A DNA stretch of 62,997 bases from Granulosicoccus sp. (GTDB lineage: Bacteria; Pseudomonadota; Gammaproteobacteria; Granulosicoccales; Granulosicoccaceae), in NCBI GenBank assembly GCA_013002205.1, contig JABDKN010000104.1, forward strand, positions 1 to 62,997, given 5' to 3'. Shown here piece after piece: positions 41,377-46,162 of this stretch. Position 1 is the first letter of the stretch. The number at the start of each line of letters is the position of its first letter. Under the pieces are notes generated by a model. That model ran no database searches and was not told the DNA's origin. It saw nothing but the letters and a program-made list of their open reading frames with translations. A program made the translations under genes and the position numbers.

Positions 41377-42111
41377 ATGAGTCCTTCAAGCCAGTGCGCC
41401 AATGGTATGAAGGCAAAGGTCATCCAGAACCACTTGAGGTCGCTTGCCGATCCGGAGGTTGCGGAGAAATCCCAGCGTTTCTTCAAAACCGGCAAGGGGG
41501 ACTATGGAGAAGGTGACAGATTCCTGGGAATTCGCGTGCCGATTCTCCGAGCGCAGGTAACGCAATATGGCGAACTATCGCTCATCGAAATTGGCAGGTT
41601 ACTGAAGTCCAACTTCCACGAGGAGCGGCATTTCGCTCTGATGCTGCTGGTACGGCAATTCAGCAAACGTGATGCCGTACAGCGAAAGGCTATCTACGAA
41701 TTCTATCTGGACAATACCCGGTATATCAACAACTGGGATCTGGTGGATTGTTCAGCGCCCGGGATTGTCGGTGTGTACCTGGAAGGCAACAGCCGTCGTC
41801 TTCTCTATGCACTTGCAGAATCCACCAGCTTGTGGGAGCGGCGAATTGCGATAATCTCGACCTTGCATTTCATCAAAAAAGACGATTTTGCTGACACCCT
41901 CAAGATTTCAGCCTTGTTGCTGAATGATGGAGAGGATCTTATTCATAAAGCTGTGGGCTGGATGCTTCGTGAAGTCGGCAATCGTGACTTCAGCGTGGAG
42001 GAGAAGTTCCTGAAGAAAAATTATCGGGATATGCCGAGAACCATGCTGCGATATGCCATTGAAAAGTTTCCTGGCGAGATGCGTAAATCATACCTCGATG
42101 GCAGTGCTTAA
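41377..42111 (+). CDS. DNA alkylation repair enzyme (AlkD-like)
   Basis: AlkD glycosylases remove N3- and N7-alkylpurines using an all-helical HEAT-repeat scaffold. The 244 residues include the active-site segment NNWDLVDCSAPGIVG (W120 and D124), matching the Trp and catalytic Asp of AlkD. The FFKTGKGDYGEGDRFLGIRVP N-terminal motif (quoted in part: FKTGKGDYGEGD) is also typical. ATG at 41407 is an alternative start. Base composition is visibly lower in GC than its neighbours, suggesting transfer. A 14-bp palindrome covers its stop. Confidence 0.88.
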   Translation: MSPSSQCANGMKAKVIQNHLRSLADPEVAEKSQRFFKTGKGDYGEGDRFLGIRVPILRAQVTQYGELSLIEIGRLLKSNFHEERHFALMLLVRQFSKRDAVQRKAIYEFYLDNTRYINNWDLVDCSAPGIVGVYLEGNSRRLLYALAESTSLWERRIAIISTLHFIKKDDFADTLKISALLLNDGEDLIHKAVGWMLREVGNRDFSVEEKFLKKNYRDMPRTMLRYAIEKFPGEMRKSYLDGSA

Positions 42112-42143: not shown

Positions 42144-42813
42144 TGAGTGAACAGGTCAGACAAGCTGAGATGCTGGCAGTTTGCATAGCCAAGGCATTGG
42201 GCGAGCAGCATCTGGGCACCCACAACAGGTTTCGCAGCAGCTGGGCACCGTGCTGCAAGTCATGCATGACATTCCCGTATCCGGATACGGTCGACTTGAA
42301 AATTCGACAGACAAATTGACAGGCAGCGCCCAAAGTGCCGAAGTCGGCTTGCAGATGCGATATGAGGCACCATGGCCCTTTACGTTCGAATCGCTGGACG
42401 ACCACCCGACAGTACGAGCCCTGCCGTCACTGAAGCCAAAGATACATCGCATGGAGTCGGATTTATTGAGCTTCGAGCAGGGAAGCAAGCCTGCCATTAA
42501 CCATAGCGATCTTCACGAAGGACAATTGCTTGTATCCGCTGACAGTCTGACCGCCTTACTGGACTTCAACGACGCATTTGTGGGTCGTCGGGAATGGGAT
42601 CTGGGTTCCTATCTGTATTTTCACGGCAGCAAGTGTCTCGGCGATCTCCTGGATGGCTACTGCCGTAGTACTGATGATCGATCCTCTCTGACTGACCAGG
42701 CGGCTCTGGCGTCGGTACTCATTGCCCTGCATCATGGAAATCGAGGCGCTATATTGGGGCGACCGCATCGCATCGAGGCGTCGGTGAAGTATCTTAGTTG
42801 CATGTTTCTCTAG
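42144..42813 (+). pseudogene. Remnant aminoglycoside-phosphotransferase-family protein
   Basis: The frame 42181-42813 encodes the C-lobe of an APH/choline-kinase fold: INHSDLHEGQLLVSA (the Brenner-type HxDLHxxN region with Gln in place of Asn), LLDFNDAFVGRREWDLG (metal-binding Asp) and a VMHDIPVSGYGRL segment. The N-lobe with the ATP-binding loop is missing. A short ORF in another frame from 42144 runs into the same region, which suggests a frameshift plus deletion. The tail overlaps the convergent MmgE/PrpD gene by 20 bases. Probably non-functional; a truncated but expressed protein cannot be ruled out. Confidence 0.6.
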
Positions 42814-44230
42814 CCTTGGCAATGGCGTCCAGCAGACTCGACAGGTCCTGCCCTCCCTGCATAACGATCGTTGACCACAATGACTGACTCGTGGTCTCAC
42901 CCAGCAGGATGGCTGATTTCCTGAGCACTTTCACCTGGCGCGTTGCGATGTCCAGGGGTGCCGCAATATCATGCGTGGCGGACAATTCACGACCATCGTT
43001 CATCATGACAGTCACCCGGGCTGCTGTGTCGCTCAATTTGGCGTCGGCGGCGACGTGAGTTCTCTCCTTGACCAACTGCAGTTCAGGATCATGGCAATTG
43101 GCATCCGTGTAGGTCGTCAGTGCTGCGGTATCCAGCTCCGAGAACACGATGGCGCTGACGAAACGGTAGCTGAACTTGGCTTCCAGGCCCGTCCTCGGCG
43201 CCAACTGATTACATACTTGCATCCAGCGTGGATTGGTCAATATCCGTATGGCCCGGATGTCATCGCTGAGAATCGCATGTTCGTCCCTGAGCTCGATCAG
43301 CGCTTCGATGCAGGCATGCAGACCATGACAACATGCGTGAAACTTGTGTTTCACCTCGACGGAGACAAAGTCTTTTCCCAATTTGGCCATGGGATTACCC
43401 TGCGAAAGCGAGCCTGGGTCCGTCTTCGCGTCCGTGGCCATCGTCACCTGTCCATGATGACTTGTTGCGAAGCCCTGGGGACACTCCAAAGCGTCAGGCC
43501 TGGACACGAAACCCATAGCGGCCAGCAACGTTGCCTCTATTCCATTGGCCGCAGCCATCCCGGCGTTGAAGGGCTTTCCCATGGTACCGAACTGGCTGGT
43601 CAATCCTGATGCACGGGTAGTGGCCAGTCCCAGAGCGTGCTGCGTCTGTTCGGCATCAAGTTGCAGCAGTCGGGCCGTCGCAGCTACAGCTCCAAACGTA
43701 CCTGCAGTTGCGCTCTGGTGGAAGCCTGCTTCGTAATGCGATCGTCCGAGCCAGTGACCTGTGTAACACGCCACCTCTGTCCCGATGATGGATGCCTCGA
43801 GCAGGCCGCGCATGGACACGTTGCCAGCCTGGCCAGCAGCCATCGCTGCGGACAATATGACCACGCTGGTATGTCCGACATGCAGGAAGTGCGTATCGTC
43901 ATAGTCCAGCGCATGCGATGTCGTACCGTTGGCCAGAGCGGCTGCACGCATCGGCAGCCGTCGCGTTTCCCCTATGACGAGTGACTGTTCGTGACCGCCT
44001 TCCGTCAACAGCATTTGACGCACGATTCGACTGACAGGCTCATCCGTGCCTGCCAGTGACACCGTACACCAGTCCAGCACTGACAATTGCATCACAGTGA
44101 TCAGTTCACTGACGAGTTTGTCGGGCAAATCACTGAATCGTGTGTTGACGACGAAATCGGCGATTTTGCCGGACAGGGTGTCTCCAGGAACTGGTGTATC
44201 AGCGATCATGCGGCTCCGGTTTTGGTTCAC
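42794..44230 (-). CDS. MmgE/PrpD family protein, partner of DddP
   Basis: A 478-residue protein of the MmgE/PrpD family, which includes 2-methylcitrate dehydratase and cis-aconitate decarboxylase. Family features include SHALDYDDTHFLHVGHTS (conserved Asp/His active region), LGLATTRASGLTSQFGTMGKPF (part) and VEVKHKFHACCHGLHACIEAL. The GTG start overlaps the dddP stop (GTGA); an ATG at 44209 is possible. Cotranscription with dddP suggests it acts on acrylate-derived or related hydroxy acids (inference). The reaction cannot be told from sequence. Confidence 0.85.
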   Translation of the reverse strand: MNQNRSRMIADTPVPGDTLSGKIADFVVNTRFSDLPDKLVSELITVMQLSVLDWCTVSLAGTDEPVSRIVRQMLLTEGGHEQSLVIGETRRLPMRAAALANGTTSHALDYDDTHFLHVGHTSVVILSAAMAAGQAGNVSMRGLLEASIIGTEVACYTGHWLGRSHYEAGFHQSATAGTFGAVAATARLLQLDAEQTQHALGLATTRASGLTSQFGTMGKPFNAGMAAANGIEATLLAAMGFVSRPDALECPQGFATSHHGQVTMATDAKTDPGSLSQGNPMAKLGKDFVSVEVKHKFHACCHGLHACIEALIELRDEHAILSDDIRAIRILTNPRWMQVCNQLAPRTGLEAKFSYRFVSAIVFSELDTAALTTYTDANCHDPELQLVKERTHVAADAKLSDTAARVTVMMNDGRELSATHDIAAPLDIATRQVKVLRKSAILLGETTSQSLWSTIVMQGGQDLSSLLDAIAKARETCN

Positions 44231-45594
44231 TCCAGGAAACGCCGTTCATAGGGATAGAGGCTCAGCCGTTCGTAACCGTGGTCGGTGATGACCACCTGGT
44301 CCTCAAGCTTTATTCCACAACGGCCGCCCACTTCACCCACGTAGACTTCCACGCAAAGACATTGTCCCGGTTCGAGCACTCCGTCATAGCCGCTCTCTGC
44401 ATAGTCCTCCGGATAGCGTATGGATGGATACTCATCACAGAGTCCAACGCCGTGAAAAACGACACCGTAGCGCTGGTGCCGATAGGCTTTGTCCAGGCGG
44501 TGTGATTTTTCAGTCAGTTCCCTGAATCCAGCACCGGGTTTCAGCAGCGACAGGTTATGCTGAATGTGTTCGTATGCATGGGCATACAGGGTTTTCTCAT
44601 ACGCATCGGGCGCACCGTCGCCGACTTTCCAGGTGCGGGAAAGATCTGCACAGTAACCGTAGGTGCCGATCATGTCGGTGTCAAACGCCAGTATGTCGCC
44701 CTCAAGCAGGGTACGCGGTCCCGCTTCCTGGAACCATGGATTTGTCCTCTGACCGGAGTTCAGAATGCGCGTCTCTATCCATTCGCCACCGCGGATGTAA
44801 TTGCCCCGTTGCAACTCGGCCCACAGCTCGACTTCACTTCGTCCCGGTTGCAGCAGGTCATGCATTTCGCCCATGGCGGCTTCGCAACTGGAAATGGCGC
44901 AGCGCATGGCGAGCAGTTCATTATCGTTCTTTATCTTCCGCGCATGCTCGGTCACTTCCTGCCCATTGTGAACGACGATACCCAGCGCCTGCAGCGCCGC
45001 TATGCCCACAAATTCCATACGATCGACTGCGAGCCGCCTGTTGATTCCCGCATGCGCCTGCATCAGGTCGCTCACGGTCCCGGCAAATCGGGCGGCATGT
45101 TCAGCGCATCGATCACCGGATTCGAAATAGAAGAAAGATGCTCCATGGCGCACTTCACGTACCAATGGCAGGTGCGCACTCAAGTGTTCACAGGCATGAA
45201 AATCCCACAGGACCATGTACCCGCTGGCTGACACGAAACATGCCCGGCATGGATTGTGAGTGGACCACAATTGCATATTGGTACTATCGGTTGCGTAGCG
45301 GATGTTGAGCGGGTCAAACATCAGCAGACCGGCCAGGTCTCGCGCGACAAGCTCCCCAACCAGCCGTGACAGCCGATATTCGCGCAGGCTCTGCAGGTCT
45401 GGCGGTGTCAGTCCCAGAGCCTCCCATTCCCTGAAGGCAAGATCAGTCGGTCCGATCTCGATGCGATCGGACAGGTTGGGTGTGCCATCCGGCAGGCACT
45501 CACCAACGGTCACAGGTCGTCGCGCCGGATCGATCCTGCGATGACTGTTTGTCAGGTAACGACTGTCTTCAACCGGCTGGAAAGTCCTCATCAC
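44227..45594 (-). CDS. dddP: DMSP lyase DddP (M24 peptidase fold)
   Basis: DddP cleaves dimethylsulfoniopropionate to dimethyl sulfide and acrylate. It belongs to the M24 metallopeptidase family but has no peptidase activity. The 455 residues closely resemble Roseobacter DddP, with the signatures DPLNIRYATDSTNMQLW and GYMVLWDF. Metal ligands D305, D307, D317, H381, E416 and E431 and catalytic Y376 and D387 are all present. Each is exactly 10 residues later than the published residues of Ruegeria DddP as I recall them. Other M24 enzymes would not keep Y376 and D387. No DmdA or acrylate-CoA genes are in the window. Confidence 0.85.
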   Translation of the reverse strand: MMRTFQPVEDSRYLTNSHRRIDPARRPVTVGECLPDGTPNLSDRIEIGPTDLAFREWEALGLTPPDLQSLREYRLSRLVGELVARDLAGLLMFDPLNIRYATDSTNMQLWSTHNPCRACFVSASGYMVLWDFHACEHLSAHLPLVREVRHGASFFYFESGDRCAEHAARFAGTVSDLMQAHAGINRRLAVDRMEFVGIAALQALGIVVHNGQEVTEHARKIKNDNELLAMRCAISSCEAAMGEMHDLLQPGRSEVELWAELQRGNYIRGGEWIETRILNSGQRTNPWFQEAGPRTLLEGDILAFDTDMIGTYGYCADLSRTWKVGDGAPDAYEKTLYAHAYEHIQHNLSLLKPGAGFRELTEKSHRLDKAYRHQRYGVVFHGVGLCDEYPSIRYPEDYAESGYDGVLEPGQCLCVEVYVGEVGGRCGIKLEDQVVITDHGYERLSLYPYERRFLE

Positions 45595-46162
45595 CTGGCG
45601 TCGCCCACGGGTGGCAATTCTGTGGAAGAGACAATAGCCCGAGGCTCAGCAGAACTTCAAGAATTAATTCCAGATCGTCCAGAGACTGAACCAGTAGCTG
45701 ATATTTGCGGGAGTGTGGCAATACCGTGCGGTGTCTGCCGGGATGATAGCTGCCTTGCTATCCGGACCACGAGATTTCAAGGACAGGATGATCCATCCCT
45801 GGCTGTCAGGCCTGCGATGCCTCGGCCAGCCTGATTGCCGGCGTATCGAGATTGAATTCGCAGTAGTAGTGTGAACGGCGTCGATATATCACTGTTCAGG
45901 TGTTACGTTTGGTAACAATCGGGTCTGAAAGTGAGACTTCCAGTGTCAAAACTCTCCGCTCAAAAAATAAGTCTTTGTTTTCATGAAGGTTAATTCCTGG
46001 CAGTTATTTAACCGGAATTATTTACAATTCTGCGTCACACGAGTTGGGAAAACTGTTCACCGTTGTGGTGATGACCTGACATCTGCTTTGTCGTGACACC
46101 GTCGTGACAATCGATGAGGCATTCGTCATCAGCGCTCTGAACTGGATATGGAGACTATTGAT
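45595..46162. other. Divergent region between dddP and acs
   Basis: About 550 bases without a convincing gene. The part from 45920 to 46090 is AT-rich. Two symmetrical elements lie in it: TGTTAC-N5-GTAACA at 45901-45917 and a 7-bp inverted repeat TAATTCC/GGAATTA at 45991-45997 and 46014-46020. Neither has a clear adjacent -10/-35 pair. The region must hold the promoters for dddP and for acs. Confidence 0.6.
45901..45917. promoter_or_regulatory. Palindromic candidate operator upstream of acs and dddP
   Basis: Perfect 6-bp arms TGTTAC and GTAACA separated by 5 bases. The shape fits a dimeric regulator site, but no binding protein can be assigned. It lies about 260 bases from the acs start and about 310 from dddP. 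Confidence 0.4.

Follow-up and report, generated by a model that had tools for sequence, protein, structure and literature searches.

A DMSP lyase gene beside an MmgE/PrpD-family gene in Granulosicoccus: probable lineage-specific juxtaposition of two catabolic genes

When a gene for a dimethylsulfoniopropionate (DMSP) lyase overlaps a gene of the MmgE/PrpD family, do the two form a pathway unit or are they neighbours by chance? The question is raised by a Granulosicoccus sp. contig (JABDKN010000104.1, assembly GCA_013002205.1; positions 1 to 62,997, hereafter the window), on which dddP and an MmgE/PrpD-family gene lie head to tail on the minus strand, 553 bp from a divergent acetate-CoA ligase gene (acs). 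A reading made from the sequence alone had proposed that acrylate, or a product formed from it, may be the substrate of the MmgE/PrpD enzyme, and that the pair is a candidate new pathway unit. We propose instead that an ordinary DddP probably stands beside a probable succinate-type isomerase, that the two were juxtaposed in this lineage, and that any connection with DMSP breakdown is fortuitous or, at the most, a matter of co-regulation. The features concerned are the following.

44227–45594, minus strand: dddP, probable DMSP lyase of the M24-metallopeptidase fold; open reading frame (ORF) of 455 amino acids
42794–44230, minus strand: MmgE/PrpD-family gene, open ORF of 478 amino acids; probable substituted-succinate isomerase/epimerase
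44227–44230, minus strand: GTGA overlap, the dddP stop lying over the most upstream start of the MmgE frame
45595–46147, no strand: intergenic region of 553 bp between the divergent genes dddP and acs

Both ORFs are open over these coordinates and the dddP stop codon (TGA, 44229–44227) overlaps a GTG at 44230, as the sequence-only reading had described.

Conservation of the gene pair

MmgE was absent from the DddP-like loci that we examined (the best 80 of the 127 found in a scan with exact-match peptide patterns derived from the window protein), both by tblastn (0/80) and with a hidden Markov model (HMM) built from 57 rows (0/80). The flanks reached at least 3 kb downstream in 75 of the 80 loci and at least 3 kb on both sides in 69. 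A second survey covered 108 DddP-type places in 78 genomes, taken from overlapping sets of 57, 369 and 398 genomes, and set them against the PF03972 matches of those genomes (E ≤ 1e-5); from the set of 57 genomes only DddP places with E ≤ 9.1e-79 were used, and a second piece in G023, two pieces in G019, one piece in G012 and weaker M24 hits were excluded. Among the 67 places of at least 49% identity, PF03972 occurred within 60 kb on the same contig only at the window (0/66 for the others). DddP, for its part, was found in none of 30 loci around MmgE relatives, some of these loci being short or one-sided.

The 41 more remote DddP-like places had PF03972 within 3 kb at two, at 11–13 kb at two and at 28 kb at one. 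We rejected these co-occurrences (L213, 0.6 kb and divergent; L214, 2.7 kb; L217, 11.5 kb; G418, 12.5 kb, stretches L215 and L216; G472, 28 kb) as instances of the same unit. Their DddP-like proteins are remote (37–45%). The 30-row clade of the window MmgE protein, described below, does not include the MmgE proteins of L213, L215 and L217, and that of L214, which is not in the tree, scores 154 bits with the 57-row HMM.

A conserved DddP–MmgE pathway unit is thus not supported: within the sample the pairing occurs in this genome only, an outcome that the sequence-only reading had itself named as refuting its proposal. A lineage-specific juxtaposition of two known kinds of enzyme is more likely. 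The pairing does seem to be undescribed, as had been suspected, a literature search having found no description of it (most subscription journals lay outside its coverage); since the neighbourhood is not conserved, an undescribed pairing does not amount to a pathway. PMC3338564 (2012) reports dddP near acuI in only a single bacterium, which agrees with dddP usually lying apart from acrylate genes. The locus is a warning that one tight junction is insufficient for reading a pathway.

The lyase and its relatives

The 44227–45594 protein carries PF00557 and narrowly passes NF043017, the NCBIfam equivalog model of DddP, with 603.3 bits for a cut-off of 600; the gene had been correctly named from its sequence, and so had its MmgE/PrpD neighbour. 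Homology extends over the whole length to two solved chains, 4rzy (E = 4e-150), which is RlDddP of Ruegeria lacuscaerulea, and 4b28, the DddP of Roseobacter denitrificans (RdDddP). The metal ligands of RdDddP are D295, D297, D307, H371, E406 and E421, and Y366 and D377 were proposed to be catalytic, according to PMC4108388. All eight equivalents are kept in the window protein at a constant offset of +10 (numbering checked against the RlDddP chain), which bears out the earlier claim of a complete set of catalytic residues. When the window protein is aligned with RlDddP and 163 relatives, the D377 column (Asp387 of the window protein) holds Asp in 143/143 close rows that reach it (at least 49% identity, RlDddP and the window protein included; 2/145 close rows are gapped) and Gly or Val in 10/20 remote rows.

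A quick maximum-likelihood tree of 165 rows, with support from the Shimodaira–Hasegawa-like approximate likelihood ratio test (SH-aLRT) and no bootstrap, was built from 190 proteins, 164 of them different, plus RlDddP; pieces of less than 300 amino acids (including that of G023) and identical rows were excluded, and 4b28 is absent. The window protein and RlDddP fall together in one clade of 73 rows (SH-aLRT 100). The window protein also has the six metal ligands, the Tyr and the Asp in common with both solved proteins, but differs from RlDddP in belonging to a distinct 16-row subclade (support 99) that also takes in sequences from Paracoccus, Marivibrio, Neomegalonema, Rhodobacteraceae and Gammaproteobacteria, and in scoring close to the NF043017 cut-off. 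The window protein and five relatives from the subclade and neighbouring groups score 590–632 bits, compared with 870 for a Loktanella protein and 790 for one from a gammaproteobacterial genome (both of the group around RlDddP), 507 for a rhizobial and 296 for a remote protein.

Of the 12 other same-genus genomes with a DddP in the tree, 11 have one from the group adjoining RlDddP. To these the window adds, for the same genus, a DddP from a distinct subclade whose active site is complete. The closest same-genus relative (78–80% identity) is missing an internal part that holds three of the metal ligands, and its genome gives no PF03972 match (E ≤ 1e-5). This decayed-looking copy (L121:6961-8185, 80% identical pieces) adjoins GntR and Rieske oxygenase genes; the decay could be sequence error, the acs gene of the same genome also having an internal stop. 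Elsewhere, eight Neomegalonema-type loci (L004, L006–L009, L011–L013) carry members of one protein cluster, a recurrent DddP neighbour, on the same strand 3' of dddP, either immediately after it or no more than about 0.7 kb away; the member in L004 is a hydrolase–OsmC fusion.

Lyase activity is reported well outside the Roseobacter type, in fungal proteins that share 50% and 32% identity with RdDddP (PMC4108388) and in a protein of a scallop symbiont that is closest to Oceanimonas DddP2, at 55% (PMC10989825). DMSP cleavage is therefore the likely activity of the window protein. DddP enzymes also cleave dimethylsulfoxonium propionate (DMSOP), mostly preferring DMSP, according to PMC10686828. 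By family resemblance, the window enzyme would cleave DMSP, and less well DMSOP, to acrylate and dimethyl sulfide or dimethyl sulfoxide, in a β-elimination over a two-metal centre.

Could the DddP-like protein not be a DMSP lyase at all? DddP chemistry is a β-elimination, and iminodisuccinate (IDS) epimerase is paired with a C–N lyase. By formal likeness to that system, an epimerase and a β-eliminating lyase might act here on one substituted succinate, and the closeness of the subclade and its neighbours to the DddP cut-off would fit. Against this, all eight tested DddP residues are kept, Asp387 included, the subclade lies inside the RlDddP-containing clade and no MmgE gene was seen in the examined stretches of other subclade members, so that we consider this explanation highly improbable. 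We give even less credit to a young epimerase–lyase bicistron, in which MmgE would invert a substituted succinate (a sulfonium or other onium-type acid) at its α carbon and the DddP-type lyase would β-eliminate the product. If the pair did share a substrate, DddP chemistry would extend beyond DMSP and DMSOP.

The MmgE/PrpD protein and its possible substrates

The 42794–44230 protein is intact and carries both MmgE/PrpD domains, PF03972 and PF19305; no other PF03972 gene was found in the genome, which is 98.7% complete. The best matches among solved structures are IDS epimerase (2hp0, E 2e-36) and the IRG1 of B. subtilis (bsIRG1; 7bra, E 3e-36). The window protein is only a remote relative of both, on a separate branch of the tree, but its H106, D109, H120, Y166, H171, K219, K296 and C301 are identical to theirs at the eight mapped positions of the family active site, which include the His and Tyr bases and the dicarboxylate-binding residues. 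These residues are common to nearly all family rows and are not specific for methylsuccinate isomerase. PMC7347537, which discusses the active sites of both enzymes, assigns the Tyr the role of second base in IDS epimerase and notes that mammalian cis-aconitate decarboxylase does not conserve it; it treats bsIRG1 as a cis-aconitate decarboxylase, whereas bsIRG1 figures without shown activity in extracts of PMC12290011. The same extracts give the characterised MmgE/PrpD enzymes a common substrate backbone, a four-carbon 1,4-dicarboxylate. The window protein likely isomerises or epimerises a substituted succinate-type acid, for example methylsuccinate, and would do so through an enolate.

The 1,4-dicarboxylate backbone of the family's substrates is missing from acrylate. 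The acrylate hypothesis of the sequence-only reading, for example in the form of a 2-methylcitrate dehydratase acting after conversion of acrylate to propionyl-CoA (CoA, coenzyme A), can appeal to the tight packing of the two genes, to the uniqueness of the PF03972 gene in a nearly complete genome and to 2-methylcitrate being a known family substrate (PMC12290011). However, the only PrpD equivalog model that the protein matches, NF042438, gives 20.5 bits for a cut-off of 950, and the best PrpB candidate in the genome reaches 57.6 bits for a cut-off of 354.4, with none above it (PrpC and AcnD were not searched; the PrpB model passes its cut-off in 4/14 control genomes). Without a PrpB above cut-off, the role of a methylcitrate-cycle PrpD is unlikely. 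In addition, the pairing was not seen elsewhere in the sampled loci and the genome carries an AcuI/YhdH gene (449.4 bits, cut-off 297.25). Taken together, these results make it very unlikely that MmgE acts on acrylate or an acrylate-derived acid. Acrylate is most likely handled with the separately encoded AcuI/YhdH, AcuI belonging to the PrpE–AcuI route according to PMC5651017; since 2/14 control genomes also pass the cut-off of the AcuI/YhdH model, the gene does not by itself mark a DMSP user. The genome further encodes a BCCT transporter (493 bits).

In a tree of 57 rows the MmgE protein belongs to a 30-row clade (100/99; one row duplicates the window) that holds proteins from five plasmids, whose contexts we examined (5 of 21 plasmid records). 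The five plasmid genes adjoin differing sets of CoA-transferase, acyl-CoA dehydrogenase, MaoC and citrate-lyase-type (CitE-like) genes; that of Cupriavidus oxalaticus (46%) stands with a citrate-lyase-family gene, MaoC, acyl-CoA dehydrogenase and CoA-transferase. By its place in the tree, the window protein groups with proteins from itaconate/methylsuccinate-type clusters. CoA-pathway partner types occur in only 3 of the 18 other loci of MmgE relatives (L269, L271, L280). The neighbours of the window gene are dddP and an ORF with an APH (phosphotransferase) domain, with no adjacent acyl-CoA dehydrogenase, methylsuccinyl-CoA dehydrogenase or CoA transferase gene. Compared with the (S)-(R)-methylsuccinate isomerase of PMC12290011, it shares the family active-site residues, and its clade includes the C. 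oxalaticus plasmid protein, but it is without cluster partners.

The plasmid contexts bear on another possibility, a co-regulated scavenging unit in which DddP would take algal DMSP while MmgE prepares another marine acid, perhaps a methylsuccinate-like one, with no shared intermediate. The CoA-transferase, acyl-CoA dehydrogenase and CitE-like clusters around the plasmid members of the clade favour it, as does the likelihood of a single transcript; the lack of an acyl-CoA dehydrogenase or CoA transferase gene next to the window MmgE argues against it, methylsuccinate isomerase genes always adjoining a dehydrogenase gene in the extracts of PMC12290011. We regard such a unit as possible but unlikely.

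Several points nevertheless weigh against a mere juxtaposition of an ordinary DddP and a succinate-type isomerase: (i), the DddP score lies only 3 bits above the cut-off, as against 790 and 870 bits near RlDddP. (ii), 60 of the 80 DddP-like loci belong to rhizobial (mostly Mesorhizobium-type) relatives outside the RlDddP clade and 20 lie inside it; the sample from the right clade is smaller, namely these 20 loci and 48 rows from the further genome sets. (iii), many contigs are short fragments and the genomes are a sample, so that linkage could be missed. (iv), Tyr166 does not discriminate, being present in 54/57 alignment rows, remote rows and bsIRG1 included. (v), beside the MmgE relatives of the same genus (57% and 54%) lie thiamine-synthesis genes (at a contig end) or an RraA-like and a reductase gene, and no CoA-pathway genes from which a substrate could be fixed (one locus is one-sided). 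And (vi), the junction is very tight, and such packing often marks functional partners. The second and fourth points led us to lower the weight of juxtaposition and to raise that of the scavenging unit. Juxtaposition remains the explanation that we favour: two catabolic genes would have become head-to-tail neighbours in this lineage, probably on one transcript, without MmgE taking part in DMSP breakdown.

Among the MmgE relatives, the gene stands beside an ammonium transporter gene, or one ORF from it, in 6 of the 18 loci (L267, L270, L273, L276–L278; Pfam was run on one). These loci, from genomes of one family, also have ispDF nearby, and often pgpA and cinA.

The junction and the surrounding region

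The MmgE frame may begin at either of two codons. Upstream of the GTG at 44230, no good Shine–Dalgarno sequence was seen by eye; seven codons inside, at 44209, the same frame offers an ATG preceded by GGAG at a distance of four bases (again read by eye). A start at 44209, at least as plausible as the GTG, would leave a 17-nt gap instead of the overlap. The genes are tightly packed on the same strand under either start, which makes a two-gene transcript likely; strict translational coupling, as the sequence-only reading had it, is no more than possible. The start of dddP is similarly ambiguous: its GTG (45594) is immediately followed by an ATG (45591, read by eye), which is as likely a start.

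A simple sigma-70-like scan of the 45595–46147 region gave no match; its G+C content (GC) is 49.4%, against 57% for the window. The GC of dddP and of the MmgE gene, both 0.57, equals that of the window, and by this measure they are not foreign. No long boundary repeats were seen around the region. The acs gene has a match in 22 of 26 same-genus genomes, and none of the stretches around its nine closest copies (79–89%) contains MmgE, DddP or rhamnose genes (0/9; L290 reaches only 1.4 kb upstream), which marks the region upstream of acs as lineage-variable.

On the other side of the pair, the APH-domain ORF (42181–42813, plus strand) overlaps the final 20 bases of the MmgE gene. It matches only the later part of its Pfam profile (93–231 of 239) and is possibly a truncated gene. 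Next to it, at 41377–42111 on the plus strand, an AlkD-type DNA-alkylation-repair gene lies inside the lineage-variable stretch, with a GC of 49.9% against 54–57% in the surrounding genes.

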